This document shows, in pieces, positions 21,999 to 29,990 of a DNA stretch of 64,000 bases. Source of the stretch: Streptomyces albogriseolus (GTDB taxonomy: Bacteria; Actinomycetota; Actinomycetes; Streptomycetales; Streptomycetaceae); assembly GCA_014650475.1 (NCBI GenBank), contig BMVA01000011.1, forward strand, positions 1 through 64,000, written 5' to 3'. The translations under genes and the position numbers were made by a program. The notes below the pieces were generated by a model. That model did no database searches, was not told the origin of the DNA, and was given only the letters and a program-made list of their open reading frames with translations. The stretch's first letter is position 1, and each line of letters starts with the position of its first letter.

Positions 21999-24900
21999 TC
22001 AGGTCGTCGCCGCCGGCCGCTTGAACATCCGCGTCGCCGTGATCTCGCTGTGCGTCTCCTGGCCCGGGTCCGGCTGGGGCAGGCCCGGGCGGAGGTGCTC
22101 CTCCACGCTGATGTACTTGAGGCCTGCCCGCAGGTCGGCGTCGTTGCGGAGCCGGATGACCAGGGGGAACTCGGCCAGGGCCGTGGTGTCGAACAGGCCT
22201 GTGGTGTACAGCAGCTGGACGCCGAGCGCGTCGGCGACCGCACGCTGGAGCTCCAGCAGATAGGTGGCGTTGGCCCGGCCGATGGGGTTGTCGAGGAACA
22301 GGGTGCCGGCGTGCCGGTGCTTGTCGCGGCCCCGGTCGTTGGAGCGCAGCGCGGCCATGGTGCAGTACAGGGCGATGGCCGCGGTGAGCAGCTGCCCGCC
22401 GGAGAACACGTCGCCCATCTGCCCGACCGGCACCCGCTCGGCGCGCAGCACCGCGTCGGGCTTGAGGATCTCCACCGCCACGCCCTTGGGCCGCAGGGCG
22501 GCGGCGACGCCGCGCAGCAGCAGGGACATGCCGTCGCGCCGCAGGTCGGAGTTCTTCCTGACGGCCGCGCGGGTGGCCTCGTCGATGACCTCGCCGAGGC
22601 GCTCGGTGAGGGTGGCCTGGTCGGGCTCCTCGAAGCGGATGCGCAGGAACTCCTGCCCTGACCACTCCCCCAGGCCCTCCGGCAGCCGGGACAGCCGCTG
22701 GGCGGAGCGCAGGGTGGCGAGGGCCGACTCGACCAGACCCCGCAGCCGGTCCACGATCGAGTCGCGGTTGCGCTCCAGCTGCTCCAGCTCGTCCGTGAGC
22801 ACCCGCAGCCGGGGGGCGAAGGCGTCGGACCACTTCTTGGCGTGCTCCGGCAGCGCGGAGGCGGGCAGTTCGCGGATCTGCTGGCGGGCAGGCGTGCGGA
22901 CCTGCTCGTAGCGGGTGGAGTTGGCGTGCCGCACCAGCACGTCGCTCGCCTCGCGCACGGCGGCCTCGGCGGCGGAGAGGTCGGCGGCGCAGCCGCGCAG
23001 CGAGCGGCGCGCCTCGGCGGCGGACCGCCGGGCGTCCTCCAGGTCGCCGGGATACGGCTCGGTCCGCTCCTGCTCCTCCTCGGCGGCGTGCTCGCGCAGC
23101 AGGTCGCGGAGCATGGCGGCGATCTCGTCGAAGCCGCCTGCCGCGTCCTCGGCGGACCGGTGGGCGGCGAGGAGTTCGGCGTGCGCCTCCTGGGCCTGGC
23201 GCAACTCCTCCTCGCGGGTGGCGAGTTCGGCGGTGGCCGTGCGCAGGAGGGCCTGGGCGTGCTCAGCGTCACGCGGGATCAGTTCCTCGGGGAGGTCGGT
23301 GTGCGCCCCGCCGTCCGCGGGGGCGAGGCGCTCGGCCTCGCCGCGGAGCCGACCGAGCTGCTCGCTCGCGCCGGACATACGGGTCTCCAGGAGCTGGACC
23401 AGCTCCTCGGCGCGGGCGGCGGCGGCCTGCCGGCTGGGCCCGTCGGATCCGTCGGGCGACTGGAGCAGCTGCTCGGCGCGGGTGCGGACCTTGTTGCTGA
23501 GCCGGTCCAGCTCGGCGCGGGCGGCGCTCTCGTCGCTCTCCGCGCGGGCCTGTTCGGCGCGCAGGTCGGCGCCGACGCCGACCTTCTCGTACAGCTGGGA
23601 CGCGGCGCGGTAGGCCTCCCGCAGGGCGGGCAGGGACGTCTGCGGGGCGCCGTCGCCGTCCTCGGGCAGGTCGTCGGGGGCGCCGGCGATCTCGGAGCGC
23701 TCGGCGCGCAGGGTGCGGGCCGTACGCCGGGCGTCGTCGGCGGCGCGCTGGGCGGCGCGCCGGTCCTCGTCGGCGGCGCGGGCGCGCTCCAGACAGGACT
23801 GGGCGCGGGCCTCCGCCTCGGCGGCGTCGTCGGCCAGTTCGCGCAGCTTGGCCTGCCAGCCGGCGCGTTCCCGCAGCCGGAAGGCGAGTCCGGCGAGGGC
23901 GTCGGCGGCGCGCCGGGCCTTCTGGGCGGCCTCCTGCCGCTCGTCGCGGACCCGGACCGCCTCGGCGGCCGCCTCCTCGGCCTCCGCCCGCAGGCCGCGC
24001 GCCTCGGCCAGCTCGGCCTCGGTCTCCTCGGCGAACGCCCGTGTCCGCTCGGCCGTCGCGGCCAGTTCGGCGAGGCGTCCGGCCGGGCAGCCGGTGCGCC
24101 ACGAGGCGAGCCGGGCGGCGAGTTCGCGGTCCTTGCCGAGCCGGGCGGCGAGGGCGCGGATCTCCTCGTCCCGTTCGGCGGCGCGGGCGCGCAGCGCCTG
24201 CCGCTCCTCGTCGGCGGCGTGCTCGTCGTGCATGGCCGGGTTCGGCGGTACAAGGAACACGTCGCCGGAGCCGGACGCGGGCGTGGGCGCGAGCAGCGCG
24301 GCGGCCGTGCCGACGGCGACGGCGGACCGGGGCAGCAGGGCCGCGTCGCTCAGCGCCTCGCGGGCGCGGACATGGGAGTCGGGGTCGGTGATGACGACGC
24401 CGTCGACCAGCTCGGGGCGGGCGGCCAGGACGCGCGCGTGGTCGGCGGGGTCGACGGCCTGGGCGAGGTAGCGCCACCCGGGGAGGGCGGGGATGCCGTG
24501 CTCACCGAGGAACTCGACGGTGGCCAGCACGTCCGGGCCGGGCGGCAGCAGTCCGCCGTCGCCGAGGGCGCCGAGGATGCGGGCGTCGTCCGCGGCGGCG
24601 GTGCGCAGCTCGAACAGCTGGCGCTCGGCGGAGGACACGGCGTCGTCCAGCAGCTCGCGCAACTCGTCGGCGAACCGGTCCAGTTCCTCCGCGCTCAGCC
24701 CGCCCTCGCGGGGGCCGTCGGCCGCGCCGCCGGAGTCCGTGCGCTGGCCGGGCAGGGCGGTCCGGCGCTTGCCGGAGGCGCCGGGCAGGCTCAGCAGCTC
24801 CGCGAGCCGCTGTTCGGCGGCGAGGCCCTCGGCGGTACGGCGCTCGCCCTCGTGGGCGCGCTCGGCGGCCGTGGCCGCGTCGGCGGCGCGGGCGGCGGTC

Positions 24901-26624
24901 AGCTCGGCGCGGCTCTCGGCGGCGGCCGCCTCACGGGCGTGCTCGGTGGCCCGGCGGGCGGTCTCGCGGGCGGTGTCCCAGGCGGCGACGGCGGTCTTCT
25001 CGGCGTCGCTGGCCGCGAGGGCGGCGCGGGCCGGGTCGGCGTCGGGGGCGCTGTCGTCGAGCCAGCCGGCCCGGACGGCCTCGGCGGTCTCCTGCTCGAC
25101 CTCGGCGAGCCGCTGGCGCAGGTGGCCGATCTCGCTGCGGGCGCGCTGCGCCTCGGTGGCGGCGGCGGTGGAGTCGCGGTAGGCGCCGTCGCCTGCCTCC
25201 TGGAGGGCGGCGGACCGCTCCTCCTCCTCGTTGGCGAGGTCCTCCGCGTTCCGTGCGGCGGCGTGCAGGGCGCGGACCAGGTCGACGGCGGCCTTGGCGC
25301 GTGCGGCGAGGGCCGGGGCGGCGTCCCGCTCGGCCTCCTGGATCGCGGCGGACACCCGGGCCACCCGGTCGGCGGCGGCGCGGTGCCGCAGCACGGACTC
25401 GGCGGCCTGCCAGGCGGAGTACAGGGTGCGCGCGTCGGCCAATTCGCGCTTCTGGGCGGCGGCGGACTTCTCGGCGGCGGCGAGCGCCAGCGAGGCGTGC
25501 CGGTAGGCGAGTTCGGCGGCGATGGACGCGCTGTGCGCGCGGGCGGTCTCGGCCCGGGTGACGGCGTGGGCGGCGGCGGTGACGCGGTGGGCGAGGTCGG
25601 CGGCTCGCTCGCGCTCCTGGGCGCCGCGCGCGGAGAGCCGGCGGGCGAGGGTGCGGGTGCGGCGTTCCGCGGAGGCGTGGATCTCCCGGGCGCGGGTGCG
25701 GGCGTCGGCGGCCTCGACGATCCGGCCGAGCAGGTCCGCCGACCCGGCGGTGAAGTCGCGTTCGGCGATGAGTTCGGCGCGCCGGCCCAGCTTGTTGCCG
25801 AAGCCGCTGACGAGGTCGGCGAGTCCGTCGGTGTCACGGGTGTCGGTGACGGCGCGCAGCAGCAGGTCGGTGAAGTCGGAGTCCTTCTTCACCGCGAAGA
25901 GGCCGGCCGCCTCGCCCTCGTCGGCGTTCATCTCCCGCTGGTAGCGGAAGAGTTCGGGGTCGAGCCCGAGGTCGCCGAGGTGCTCGGTCCAGCGCTCGTG
26001 GATCTCCTCCCAGTGCACCTCCAGGTGCGGGTAGGTCCTGCCCGCCTCGGTCAGGGCGTCGCGGAAGCCCTTCATGGTGCGGCGCCGGCCGCGCGCGCCG
26101 GACTGCCCCTCGGCGGGCGGGCGCACGGACGTGGCCTCGGCGACGGGCAGGTTGTCCAGGCTGAGGCCGGGTCCCGGGCGGAAGGAGTACCAGGCCTCGG
26201 CGAACTTCCGCGGGTCGTTGGAGACCTGACGGCCTCGCCATTCGCTGACCTTGCCGACGACGACGCACTCGCCGGTCTGCACATGCTGCCATTCGAGCGC
26301 CACATGGCCGCAGTCGTCGGCGAGCAGGAACTTGCGCAGCACACCGGAGCTGGCCCCGCCGAGGGTGTTGCGGTGGCCCGGGAGCATCACGGAGAAGATC
26401 AGCTTCAGCAGGACGGACTTGCCGCCGCCGTTCTCCAGGAAGAGCACCCCGGCGGGCGCGGGGCGGCGGGGCGGGCCGACGGGCTCGTCCGCGAAGAACT
26501 CCGCCTGCGTCGGCGCCGGGTTCGGCACGGTGGCGCCGACGCCGCGCAGGTCGAGCACGGTGTCGGCGTAGCGTGCGCCCGCCGGTCCGATGGAGTAGAG
26601 GCGGACCCGGGACAGCTCGTACAT
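21999..26624 (-). CDS. SMC/MukB-like ATPase of a condensin-like complex
   Basis: 1541 aa. The N-terminus holds the Walker A segment LENGGGKSVLL (residues 63-73, K69), with leucine where most SMC proteins have the first glycine. Long alanine/glutamate/arginine-rich coiled coils follow at about 330-700 and 800-1240, separated by a globular hinge-like part near 700-800 (LPPGPDVLATVEFLGEHGIP). The C-terminal head has the ABC signature FSGGQLL (1407-1413) and a Walker B strand GTLFLDNPIG with N1446 in place of the usual catalytic glutamate. It is the last gene of a three-gene operon in the order kleisin-like, small winged-helix-like, SMC, which is the mukFEB/mksFEB/jetABC order. It is distinct from the housekeeping Smc, which lacks these partners. 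Confidence 0.88.
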   Translation of the reverse strand: MYELSRVRLYSIGPAGARYADTVLDLRGVGATVPNPAPTQAEFFADEPVGPPRRPAPAGVLFLENGGGKSVLLKLIFSVMLPGHRNTLGGASSGVLRKFLLADDCGHVALEWQHVQTGECVVVGKVSEWRGRQVSNDPRKFAEAWYSFRPGPGLSLDNLPVAEATSVRPPAEGQSGARGRRRTMKGFRDALTEAGRTYPHLEVHWEEIHERWTEHLGDLGLDPELFRYQREMNADEGEAAGLFAVKKDSDFTDLLLRAVTDTRDTDGLADLVSGFGNKLGRRAELIAERDFTAGSADLLGRIVEAADARTRAREIHASAERRTRTLARRLSARGAQERERAADLAHRVTAAAHAVTRAETARAHSASIAAELAYRHASLALAAAEKSAAAQKRELADARTLYSAWQAAESVLRHRAAADRVARVSAAIQEAERDAAPALAARAKAAVDLVRALHAAARNAEDLANEEEERSAALQEAGDGAYRDSTAAATEAQRARSEIGHLRQRLAEVEQETAEAVRAGWLDDSAPDADPARAALAASDAEKTAVAAWDTARETARRATEHAREAAAAESRAELTAARAADAATAAERAHEGERRTAEGLAAEQRLAELLSLPGASGKRRTALPGQRTDSGGAADGPREGGLSAEELDRFADELRELLDDAVSSAERQLFELRTAAADDARILGALGDGGLLPPGPDVLATVEFLGEHGIPALPGWRYLAQAVDPADHARVLAARPELVDGVVITDPDSHVRAREALSDAALLPRSAVAVGTAAALLAPTPASGSGDVFLVPPNPAMHDEHAADEERQALRARAAERDEEIRALAARLGKDRELAARLASWRTGCPAGRLAELAATAERTRAFAEETEAELAEARGLRAEAEEAAAEAVRVRDERQEAAQKARRAADALAGLAFRLRERAGWQAKLRELADDAAEAEARAQSCLERARAADEDRRAAQRAADDARRTARTLRAERSEIAGAPDDLPEDGDGAPQTSLPALREAYRAASQLYEKVGVGADLRAEQARAESDESAARAELDRLSNKVRTRAEQLLQSPDGSDGPSRQAAAARAEELVQLLETRMSGASEQLGRLRGEAERLAPADGGAHTDLPEELIPRDAEHAQALLRTATAELATREEELRQAQEAHAELLAAHRSAEDAAGGFDEIAAMLRDLLREHAAEEEQERTEPYPGDLEDARRSAAEARRSLRGCAADLSAAEAAVREASDVLVRHANSTRYEQVRTPARQQIRELPASALPEHAKKWSDAFAPRLRVLTDELEQLERNRDSIVDRLRGLVESALATLRSAQRLSRLPEGLGEWSGQEFLRIRFEEPDQATLTERLGEVIDEATRAAVRKNSDLRRDGMSLLLRGVAAALRPKGVAVEILKPDAVLRAERVPVGQMGDVFSGGQLLTAAIALYCTMAALRSNDRGRDKHRHAGTLFLDNPIGRANATYLLELQRAVADALGVQLLYTTGLFDTTALAEFPLVIRLRNDADLRAGLKYISVEEHLRPGLPQPDPGQETHSEITATRMFKRPAATT

Positions 26625-26657
26625 GGCGGACTCTCGTGAGGCTTCGTGGGGTGGGGG

Positions 26658-27539
26658 TCAGGCGGAGTGGAAGGGCAGGCCGGCGTCGGCGACCAGGTCC
26701 AGGGCGTCGCCGTCCTCGGGCGGCAGCAGGGTGGGGGTGCCGTCGGTGACGGGGACGACGCCGAGGTCGAGCAGTTCGGCCATGGCCGCGCTGCCCGCCA
26801 TGTCGCGGACCTGGAGCTGGTAGCGGGCGGTGGTGCGGTAGGTGCCGCCGTTGTCGTCGCCGGTGCGCTGGAGGAAGCCGGAGTCGGTGAGGAAGGAGAC
26901 GGCCTTCGCAACGATGCCGGTGGTGGAACCGGCCAGACGGCGGGCGTCCTTGGTGGCGCCGGTGGCGCTGCGCCGGGACCAGATCCGCCAGGCGGCCTCC
27001 AGTCCGGGGGCGCCGGTGGCCGGGTCGGTGTTCTCGCCCTGCTCGGCGGCCCGCTCCTCCAGCCGGTGGCAGGCCTGGCGGACGAAGGCGTCGACGCCGT
27101 TGACCGTGACGCGTCCGATGTAGCCGTCGTCGGCGAGGTCCTCGGGGCGGGGGAAGGCCATGGCGGCGACGGCGAGGTGGGCGAGGCCGTGCAGGAAGCG
27201 GTCGCCGCCGTCGGCGGAGGCGCGGCGCGCGTAGTCGCCCATGCGGACGGCGAACACGGAGTCCTCGGCGGCGGTGACGGCCATGCCGGCGCGCGGGGAC
27301 ACCTCCAGCACGACGAGTCCGAGGCCGGTGGCGACGGCGTCGGCGAGCCGCGCGAACGGCGGGTCCTCGCGGTAGCGGCGCAGCAGGTCCGCGTACTCCT
27401 GGTCGCGGGCGGGCTGGAGCTTGGGCTGGAGGCCGAAGGCGACGAGCCGGGCCGCGTCGGCGGCGTCGGCGGGCGTGACGGCGGTGCTCGCCGGCGTCGC
27501 CGCGGGCTCCGGCTCGCTCCGGTCGGCGTGCTCGGTCAC
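26658..27539 (-). CDS. MukE/MksE/JetB-like accessory subunit (putative)
   Basis: 293 aa, soluble. After a disordered N-terminus the protein is mostly helical; the C-terminal half (RRLAGSTTGIVAKAVSFLTDSGFLQRTG ... YRTTARYQLQVRDMAGSAAMAELLDLGVV) reads like a winged helix followed by a helix-turn segment, as in kite-type subunits. Identification rests mainly on size, predicted fold and its place between the kleisin-like and SMC-like genes (gaps of 82 and 33 bp). The start is GTG 27539 with GAGGAG 8 nt upstream. Confidence 0.65.
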   Translation of the reverse strand: MTEHADRSEPEPAATPASTAVTPADAADAARLVAFGLQPKLQPARDQEYADLLRRYREDPPFARLADAVATGLGLVVLEVSPRAGMAVTAAEDSVFAVRMGDYARRASADGGDRFLHGLAHLAVAAMAFPRPEDLADDGYIGRVTVNGVDAFVRQACHRLEERAAEQGENTDPATGAPGLEAAWRIWSRRSATGATKDARRLAGSTTGIVAKAVSFLTDSGFLQRTGDDNGGTYRTTARYQLQVRDMAGSAAMAELLDLGVVPVTDGTPTLLPPEDGDALDLVADAGLPFHSA

Positions 27540-27621
27540 GGTCGGGACTCCTCGGTGCAGGGGATGTCGGTGCGGGGGATGTGGCCGTGAGGGGCGCGCA
27601 TGCGGGGTGCCGGTGTCGCGG

Positions 27622-29148
27622 TCATGCCGCCTCCGTACGGTCCGCGGCCATGCCCGCCGCGTCCAGCAGGGCCGTGCCCACGATGAGGTCGGCGCCGCCG
27701 AACTCGGGGTCGTCGAGCTCGGTGCCGTCGTCCACGGCGAACAGCAGCTTCCGTTCGCCCTGGCGGTAGGCCGTGCCGACCGGGGGGCTGGCGGCGTGGA
27801 CGGCCAGCAGGGCGACCAGGTAGGGCAGCTCGGGGTCCTTGCGGCGGGCGTCGGCGAGCAGCCCGGACAGCCGGCGGGGCGCGTCGGCCGGGAGGTCGAG
27901 CAGCTCGGTGGCGGCCGCGAGCTGCTCTTCGCTGAAGCGGCTGTCGTCGGGCGTGGCGATGAGGTCCGGCTCGGGCATCTCCGCGCCGAGGTGCTCCCGC
28001 TCCACGGGCGGGGTGAGCAGGATCTCGACGAGGTCGGCGACCCGGACGGACACGGGCGTGCGCAGTCCGGTGCCGTGGGCGAAGAACGCGTCGGTGACCC
28101 GGGACGCCTGCTCCACGGGGAGCGGCAGCAGCGGCGCGAGGAGCTGGCCGTAGAGGTCGGTGCCGGCGGCCGCGGCGGGCGTGGCGAAGGCCTGCCGGTC
28201 CTGCTCGGCGCGGAACAGCGGACCGGCCTCCAGGAGCCGGGACTGCAGCTGGGTGTGGCGCCGGATGCAGTCCTTGACGATGTCCACCAGCTCGGCGGCG
28301 CGGCGCTTGTGCTCGGGGTCCTCGGACTCGTCGCGGGCCTTGCGGATGTTGGTGAGGATCGCGTTCTCGTGGCGGTAGCGGTCGGCGACGTGGTCGAGCG
28401 CCTCGGCGATCATGTCGGGCACGGCGCTGAGCCAGTCCACCGCGCGGACGTTGCGCCGGGTGGCCTCCAGGGCGCGGCGCAGGGTCTCGGAGTACTGCAC
28501 CGTGCGGTAGCGGGCCTGCTCGGCGGCGAGCTGGGCGTCGGCGAGCCTGCCCCGGCTGATCAGCACCTCGAGCTTGACCTCGGCGGCGATCTGGGCGCTG
28601 GTGACGTCGGTGTCGAGGGCGCCGACCAGGACGTTGACCGCCTCGTCGGTGGTGCGCAGGTACACCGTGCCGCCGGGGCCCGGCACCTCCTCGATCAGCT
28701 TGAAGTCGTAGTCCCGGCGGACGTACGTGCCGTCCGGGCCGAAGACGCCGTACACCGCGCGGAAGCCGCGGTCGACGCTGCCGACGTTGATCAGGTTCTC
28801 CAGGACCCAGCGGGCCACGCGCTCGTGCTCGGCGGCGGGGCGGTCCGGGGCCTGGGCGGCGACGCGGGGGACGAGCCGGGCGACGATCTGGTCGTGGTCG
28901 GCGCCGGTGTCGAAGTCCATGTTCAGCGTGACCAGGTCGATGGCGGCGAGCGCGATCTCCGCCATGCCGTACACCGAGTACTCGCCCGCGAGATTGGCCT
29001 TGCGGGTGTCCAGGTCGTGCAGCGGCGCGGTGCACGCGAGCGCGCGCAGCCGCCGCGCCAGTCCCTCGTCGGCGGCCGGGCCCGGCGCGGGGCGCGGCCC
29101 CGCGCTGAGCTGGGGCGGAACGCTGTCCGTCGATGCAGGCGAAGTCAC
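27622..29148 (-). CDS. MukF/MksF/JetA-like kleisin subunit (putative)
   Basis: 508 aa, soluble and largely helical. The start is taken at GTG 29148 (VTSPASTDSVPPQ); the open frame continues upstream into the GntR gene with implausible composition, and the ribosome site here is weak, so the start is uncertain. The N-terminal part (ALACTAPLHDLDTRKANLAGEYSVYGMAEIALAAIDLV) and the long middle helices (LETLRRALEATRRNVRAVDWL-type region, then ENAILTNIRKARDESEDPEHKRRAAELVDIVKD) suit a MukF-like arrangement of winged helix, helical middle domain and C-terminal domain. It is the first gene of the SMC-like operon. The assignment is by order and fold impression, not by a diagnostic motif. Confidence 0.6.
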   Translation of the reverse strand: MTSPASTDSVPPQLSAGPRPAPGPAADEGLARRLRALACTAPLHDLDTRKANLAGEYSVYGMAEIALAAIDLVTLNMDFDTGADHDQIVARLVPRVAAQAPDRPAAEHERVARWVLENLINVGSVDRGFRAVYGVFGPDGTYVRRDYDFKLIEEVPGPGGTVYLRTTDEAVNVLVGALDTDVTSAQIAAEVKLEVLISRGRLADAQLAAEQARYRTVQYSETLRRALEATRRNVRAVDWLSAVPDMIAEALDHVADRYRHENAILTNIRKARDESEDPEHKRRAAELVDIVKDCIRRHTQLQSRLLEAGPLFRAEQDRQAFATPAAAAGTDLYGQLLAPLLPLPVEQASRVTDAFFAHGTGLRTPVSVRVADLVEILLTPPVEREHLGAEMPEPDLIATPDDSRFSEEQLAAATELLDLPADAPRRLSGLLADARRKDPELPYLVALLAVHAASPPVGTAYRQGERKLLFAVDDGTELDDPEFGGADLIVGTALLDAAGMAADRTEAA

Positions 29149-29251: not shown

Positions 29252-29947
29252 CTAGTCCCCGCCCCCCACCTTGCGTCGGTAGACCTCCCCCACCCGTTCC
29301 AGCGACACGTCGAGGTAGGCGGCGAGCAGGCGTTCGGCCGTGTCCCGCTCGCCCGCCTCAAGAGCCTGGAGAATCTCGACATTTCGCGCGATGTACGGTT
29401 CGTGCAGCCGCTGCGGCTCGTCCACCGCGTGGAAGGCGAGCCGGAGTTCGGCGAAGACGCTGCGCATCAGCTCGGCGGTGCGCTCGCCGGAGGCGAGGGC
29501 GACCAGTTCCTGGTGGAAGTGGATGTTGGCCGTGCCCACCGCTTTCCAGTCACCTTCGCGGGCCGCCCGCCGCCCCTCCGCGACCGCCTGGGCGAGTCCG
29601 TCGAGGGCGTAGGGCGGCTCACCGAGTCCCCGTACGACGGCGCACTCGACGAGCCGGCGGGTGCGGTAGATGTCCTCGACGTCCTCGACGGTCAGCACCC
29701 GCACGAACACGCCCCGGTTGAGCTCGTGGACGAGCAGCCGTTCGTGCGTGAGCAGCCGGAACGCCTCGCGCAGCGTGTTGCGGGAGACCCCGAGGGCGCC
29801 GCCGATGCTGTCCTCCGAGAGCCGGGTGCCGGGTGGGAAGAAACCCTCGGCGATGCGGCTCCTGAGGATGTCCGCGACACGCTCGGCGGTGCTGGTCCTG
29901 CCCAACAGGGCACGGTCGTCGGCCAGTCCGCTCATCCGCTCTGCCAT
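29252..29947 (-). CDS. GntR-family regulator, FadR/FCD subfamily
   Basis: 231 aa from ATG 29947 (other in-frame starts at 29965 and 29935; none has a clear ribosome site). The winged helix is VADILRSRIAEGFFPPGTRLSEDSIGGALGVSRNTLREAFRLL. The C-terminal FCD helical bundle, with conserved histidines in ANIHFHQELVAL and AFHAVDEPQRLHEPYI, usually binds a metal and an organic acid. It is divergent from the MFS/DUF1445/pxpABC operon with a perfect palindrome between them. It therefore most likely represses that operon and is released by 5-oxoproline or a related acid (inference). Confidence 0.93.
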   Translation of the reverse strand: MAERMSGLADDRALLGRTSTAERVADILRSRIAEGFFPPGTRLSEDSIGGALGVSRNTLREAFRLLTHERLLVHELNRGVFVRVLTVEDVEDIYRTRRLVECAVVRGLGEPPYALDGLAQAVAEGRRAAREGDWKAVGTANIHFHQELVALASGERTAELMRSVFAELRLAFHAVDEPQRLHEPYIARNVEILQALEAGERDTAERLLAAYLDVSLERVGEVYRRKVGGGD

Positions 29948-29990
29948 GCCGGAATTCAAGCGCACACCGAAGGATGAGACAACATGGGTA

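Follow-up and report, generated by a model that had tools for sequence, protein, structure and literature searches.

A Wadjet type III JetABC complex without the JetD nuclease is a core component of the Streptomycetaceae and probably acts on the host chromosome

The stretch of Streptomyces albogriseolus DNA analyzed here (contig BMVA01000011.1, positions 1 to 64,000; hereafter the window, 64 kb) contains three head-to-tail genes on the minus strand that encode a kleisin, then a KITE protein, and then an SMC ATPase, with no jetD gene. The three open reading frames of 508, 293, and 1541 amino acids (aa) that a first-pass annotation had reported on this strand were found where it had placed them, as were the Walker A motif, ABC signature, and Walker B motif it had read in the largest protein. 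In what follows, G000 is the genome of the window, other G numbers are sampled genomes, and L numbers are fetched loci; core copies are the trio of the window and its counterparts across the family, and accessory copies are the sporadic second copies. The genes and the ATPase motifs of JetC are:

27622..29148, minus strand: jetA-like gene, kleisin subunit; 508 aa, GTG start; PADLOC JetA type III profile PDLC00567, E = 4.3e-189
26658..27539, minus strand: jetB-like gene, KITE subunit (by fold); 293 aa, GTG start
21999..26624, minus strand: jetC-like gene, SMC ATPase; 1541 aa, ATG start; PADLOC JetC3 profile PDLC00588, E = 0, 1422 bits
26415..26429, minus strand: JetC Walker A motif GGGKS, residues 66-70; identical in 64/64 core sequences reaching the site (71 were aligned, and the remaining 7 are gapped there)
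22392..22406, minus strand: JetC ABC signature FSGGQ, residues 1407-1411; identical in 71/71 core sequences
22284..22301, minus strand: JetC Walker B region LFLDNP, residues 1442-1447; LFLDNP in 71/71 core sequences

The profile matches of JetA and JetC assign the trio to Wadjet type III, of which it represents the JetA, JetB, and JetC core. The first-pass annotation had left the choice between Muk-, Mks-, and Jet-like systems open; its SMC-kleisin-KITE reading holds, and the profiles sharpen it to type III rather than a generic MukBEF. No protein of the trio reached the curated cut-off of any Pfam or NCBIfam model, and the models of the MukBEF/MksBEF type gave no match to the three at E-values up to 1. 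JetB matched no family over cut-off in PADLOC, Pfam, or NCBIfam, and the same was true of two scanned JetB proteins from complete JetABCD copies. The A-B-C order on a single strand was retained in 79/79 relatives with matches to all three genes, from 80 loci.

The identities of the two smaller subunits were examined with predicted structures. The AlphaFold model of JetB had a mean predicted local distance difference test score of 77.6, and in a Foldseek search of the PDB its 13 top rows were all chains from MukE-MukF, MukBEF, or JetABC entries (for example 3rpu_G, with E 3.3e-3 and probability 0.99, 8dk1_E, and 8as8_C). The top three Foldseek rows for the JetA model were MukBEF entries, and the top eight rows from VIA-align were MukF or MukBEF, with the Escherichia coli and N. 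vireti JetABC structures ranking lower. Every Foldseek E-value for these models was at least 0.001, and the subunit identity of the matched chains was taken from chain length, except for 1t98, which is named MukF. The model comparisons support a kleisin fold for JetA and a KITE fold for JetB, in line with the kleisin-like and winged-helix-like calls made earlier for the 508-aa and 293-aa proteins.

The jetD gene, already suspected to be missing from the window, was also not found beside the core trio of relatives. It followed jetC in 0/70 core loci showing the jetC stop codon and at least 3.4 kb beyond; in the other ten of the 80 loci, either the end of jetC was unseen or the three genes were not all present. 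A type III JetD profile likewise gave no match over loci L001-L110. The search for an orphan JetD proposed with the first-pass annotation was carried out on G000 with PF09983 (JetD_C), a profile from a 16-sequence type III JetD alignment (A1), and PADLOC JetD3, and none of the three found one. PF09983 was dropped as the sole test for JetD, with A1 and PADLOC JetD3 added instead; at E-values up to 0.001 it has no match in G007, G022, G090, or G094, all of which carry a type III JetD. Pfam-based counts of Wadjet III would thus run too low, several type III JetD proteins of the genus being missed by PF09983. One of the type III jetD genes lies at L111:13693-14883. Across the genus sample, a strong type III JetD was present in 11/150 genomes; the other 139 lack one, although jetA is present in 147.

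This presence of jetA in 147/150 Streptomyces genomes, together with the conserved gene order, answers the survey that the first-pass annotation had proposed. In the family sample, jetA was matched in 294/297 Streptomycetaceae genomes and the core copy was present in 293, because the single jetA match of G545 is a jetD-bearing copy with 27% identity. The core copy was found in 16/17 sampled genera. Identity to the jetA product of the window was mostly 83-98% within the genus, among the core copies listed, and 76-89% in 15 further genera of the family. Sampling 396 genomes across the phylum gave 17 jetA matches, comprising 12 from the genus (G000 included) and five from the 384 other genomes, the latter divergent at 30-42% identity. 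Among the six genomes of the genus and family samples without a jetA match, three (G050, G073, and G663) still hold the end of jetC. The sole jetA row of G121 was weaker (E 2.9e-71), yet a core jetC is present, and jetA is in pieces in G547, G609, and G599, from frameshift or assembly error. Such a distribution is typical of a gene belonging to the core genome of a lineage.

Armed (jetD-bearing) copies occur alongside. They are sporadic second copies, 23-57% identical, and 20/24 of those fetched carry jetD, starting no more than 20 bases from the end of jetC or overlapping it. The four others have a broken jetC (L180), end with their contigs (L184 and L216), or retain a jetA remnant (L225); L182, among the 20 with jetD, is missing jetB and most of jetC. 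Three scanned JetD proteins matched PADLOC JetD3 (5e-95 to 4e-110), and the A1 profile, compared with the PDB, reaches MksG (8b7f, E 0.0042). In the genus, the genomes with at least two jetA rows are the same 11/150 in which the type III jetD match is strong (E < 1e-90), and four more have weak A1 rows (G113, G132, G135, and G137). In the family sample, 26 of the 297 genomes have a strong JetD3 (E < 1e-45), 22 of these have at least two jetA rows, and weak JetD3 rows appear in G594, G698, and G803. Degraded Wadjet III copies were seen at L180, L182, L218, L225, and G605:C1:1241096-1242396; the damage includes broken jetA, truncated jetC, and jetD accompanied by the end of jetC only. Such damage points to the armed form being gained and lost over time. 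Streptomycetaceae are known for linear chromosomes, and in G090 what appear to be mirror-image copies of Wadjet genes lie near both chromosome ends (C1:8876-10297 and C1:9228837-9230258, locus L220). G049 and G129 likewise have JetD_C matches at both ends, ~34 kb in on the left and close to the end on the right. Mirror-image copies are as expected for terminal inverted repeats.

The relationship between core and armed copies was assessed with trees of all three proteins. For JetA (40 sequences, midpoint root; L180, L182, L218, and L225 excluded as broken or partial), the core forms one clade (support 95/92), with short internal branches, among jetD-bearing copies, and all sequences on the other side of that branch have jetD apart from L184 and L216, which are cut short by contig ends. 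The core is also one clade among jetD-bearing copies in the JetB tree (33 sequences, 88/91) and in a JetC tree made by a quick method (23 sequences, with a Shimodaira-Hasegawa-like approximate likelihood ratio test value of 100). The JetB and JetC trees were rooted on three divergent copies as a chosen outgroup and exclude several long or broken sequences; the ten core sequences in the JetC tree are all from Streptomyces, as the more distant core loci had short flanks. Since all three trees place the core as a single clade among jetD-bearing copies, a single loss of jetD is probable, no later than the last common ancestor of the Streptomycetaceae, after which the disarmed complex would have become fixed and passed on by vertical descent.

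All three genes are under purifying selection. The ratio of nonsynonymous to synonymous substitution rates, measured against the window, was 0.06-0.15 for JetA (nine pairs), 0.08-0.24 for JetB (nine pairs), and 0.12-0.18 for JetC (eight of nine pairs, L035 being left out). The LDNP sequence of the Walker B region is present in 18/18 accessory JetC sequences, as in the 71/71 from the core; LDNP was considered as a sign of a dead core copy and rejected, since all 18 accessory sequences share it. A feature that separates core from accessory copies lies in the C-terminal tail of JetB:

26667..26684, minus strand: AGLPFH motif in the JetB C-terminal tail; near-invariant in the core clade, absent from second copies

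AGLPFH is present in 152/153 distinct core JetB proteins, the sole exception reading AVLPYH, and in 0/22 distinct accessory ones. As a near-invariant island within a variable tail, it looks like a docking peptide. The JetB N-terminus differs as well, with the limit that these lengths rest on unproven start codons and include some duplicate sequences: it is longer and variable in the core, with ~25 residues before an anchor position in 141/169 sequences, compared with 6-13 residues in 15/18 accessory sequences in which the anchor was found, from 31. In cross-linking described in passages of PMC10586767, JetD contacts an IFDR motif at the JetB N-terminus; because JetD touches this end, the changed ends of core JetB would fit the loss of JetD.

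A canonical Smc is encoded elsewhere in the genome, at C17:143968-147585 (SMC_prok_B, TIGR02168, 911 bits). This was the sole TIGR02168 match over cut-off in the genome; the contig that holds the window (C11) has none, and the trio was not assigned to Smc-ScpAB. Because the genome also has a canonical Smc, the trio would add a further complex of the SMC type. That it is fixed, evolves slowly, and keeps its ATPase site intact speaks for a housekeeping function. We therefore consider it probable that the trio is a Wadjet-derived JetABC without JetD, serving the family as a core complex that organizes or segregates the host chromosome beside Smc. A second condensin is the most likely reading, and the chromosomal role itself is favored by a comfortable margin over its absence. 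The SMC-kleisin-KITE motor would descend from a type III Wadjet anti-plasmid system that lost its JetD nuclease and was thereafter inherited as a core-genome complex. Like MukBEF and the JetABC of Wadjet, both taken as loop-extruding motors in passages of PMC10586767, it would load on DNA and extrude or bridge loops with ATP; without JetD it could not finish by cutting, and its action would be directed at the organization or segregation of the host's own chromosome, with the JetB tail binding a new partner. This suggests an anti-plasmid weapon turned into a permanent chromosome-handling tool. The same source offers a precedent in Pseudomonas aeruginosa MksBEF, which it describes as having likely lost JetD and as contributing to chromosome organization. 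Among the possibilities raised in the first-pass annotation, a second chromosome-organizing complex appears to fit best, since the trio is near-universal and its genome also encodes a canonical Smc, and a new type survives solely if the term is taken to mean a type III descendant that is disarmed and fixed in the family. A more specific proposal is that this family-specific second condensin arose from type III Wadjet by a single nuclease loss, independently of MukBEF and MksBEF, and was re-targeted through the AGLPFH docking peptide, either to the linear chromosome or toward a part in hyphal growth or sporulation, which would help to account for the viability of Streptomyces smc mutants; here our doubt slightly outweighs our belief.

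Several observations weigh against a chromosomal role or the history proposed for it. The JetA tree is midpoint-rooted and those of JetB and JetC depend on a chosen outgroup, with long branches flagged in all three. Three genomes (G605, G658, and G711) hold a JetD3 without a second jetA, the JetD sitting away from the core trio, and in G605 the end of a jetC lies beside it. Conversely, 4/26 family genomes with at least two jetA rows have no strong JetD3 (G547, G599, G609, and G778); one gene is in pieces in the first three and G778 holds remnants. In G079, G600, and G736, jetA and the end of jetC are both missing. The Walker B region is without the usual glutamate (LDNP) in every aligned type III copy, and from this motif efficient ATP hydrolysis by type III JetC is not assured. 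The core copy is also off-center. In 32 single-contig genomes of the genus with a core copy (sizes rounded), it is within 25% of an end in 27; its median distance from an end, 16% of the chromosome length, and its transcription toward the nearer end in 29 are, by contrast, counted in favor of the reading. Streptomyces Hi-C data, in passages of PMC8410768, explain arm alignment and terminal domains by ParB, SMC, and HupS, and those passages show no test of this complex; functional data on the operon were not found.

The main rival to a chromosomal complex is cleavage-free defense, in which JetABC recognizes small circular DNA and silences or sequesters it instead of cutting. The ancestry of the trio is a defense system, sensing in Wadjet is done by JetABC, and human Smc5/6 silences viral circles (both in passages of PMC10586767). 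Few positions are substituted between core and accessory copies, seven in JetA and four in JetB with the JetB tail aside (thresholds, core 90% and accessory 60%). Defense genes, however, usually turn over, and the trio is near-universal and slow-evolving, in contrast to the jetD-bearing copies of these genera, which are patchy; we regard this explanation as unlikely. Less likely still is a partner nuclease or topoisomerase encoded elsewhere, whether a borrowed JetD, Topo IV, or another enzyme. MukB binds Topo IV, according to passages of PMC10123090, and profiles can miss nucleases, as PF09983 did in four genomes. JetD was nevertheless not found in G000 by JetD_C, A1, or PADLOC JetD3, and the 139/150 genus genomes without a strong type III JetD contrast with the 147 that have jetA. 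These counts weaken the earlier suggestion of a plasmid-restriction system that borrows a nuclease. The loss of the effector, and the few genomes with jetA in pieces, could also be read as a decaying Wadjet relic on its way out. Purifying selection on all three genes, ATPase motifs identical wherever covered, and a core copy in 16/17 sampled genera already contradict this, and we give it hardly any credence.

Compared with known systems, the trio shares with Wadjet type III (JetABCD) the JetA3 and JetC3 profiles, the A-B-C order, the ATPase motifs including LDNP, and the predicted KITE and kleisin folds. It differs in lacking jetD, in being a family core gene rather than patchy, and in the AGLPFH tail and, as far as start codons allow, the longer N-terminus of its JetB. 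MukBEF and the P. aeruginosa MksBEF without MksG are likewise nuclease-free SMC-kleisin-KITE trios, whereas the complex described here belongs by profile to another Wadjet lineage, type III, and left their Pfam and NCBIfam models unmatched. Corynebacterium glutamicum MksBEFG is also an actinobacterial SMC-kleisin-KITE complex but, in passages of PMC10123090, includes the nuclease MksG and serves in defense against plasmids. Borrelia burgdorferi MksB is SMC-like and shapes a linear chromosome beside Smc but, according to passages of PMC10406323, is without MksE and MksF, in contrast to the full trio here. A nuclease-free Wadjet descendant as such is already known, and a defense-system history of condensins such as MukBEF is a proposal made in passages of PMC10586767; one of type III, fixed in a family, with armed forms alongside was not found described in the literature searched. 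Titles and abstract beginnings returned no jetD-less type III trio in Streptomyces. Passages of an actinobacterial defense survey (PMC10482375) report that Wadjet is enriched toward Streptomyces chromosome ends and do not mention this trio, and passages of three Streptomyces chromosome papers discuss Smc and leave the trio unnamed. The system appears to be a single, independent case in which armed and disarmed, fixed states stand side by side in living genomes, and it places an apparently unstudied, near-universal SMC complex in the main antibiotic-producing genus. Programs that find defense systems may score the trio as a partial Wadjet.

The first-pass annotation had also noted flanking IclR and GntR genes. 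Both are present; the GntR gene is on the same strand as the trio and conserved among close relatives, and IclR is a local neighbor, found in 12/72 loci and rejected as a partner. The former is:

29252..29965, minus strand: GntR/FCD regulator gene (Pfam GntR and FCD), directly upstream of the trio

A same-strand GntR gene adjoins the trio in 77/77 close-relative loci with more than 1.2 kb of upstream sequence, from 80. In a second set of 25 core loci, mostly from more distant relatives and with 1.5-kb flanks, it was found in three, all of the same genus as the window, which makes it a candidate rather than an established fixed partner. The segment 29252-33050 of the window, where the GntR/FCD regulator is joined by a divergent MFS gene and by two others, usually lies beside the trio in close relatives. 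These two others presumably encode a DUF1445 protein and 5-oxoprolinase subunit A. The MFS gene and the last gene of the segment were each present in 64/80 loci, some of which have short flanks.

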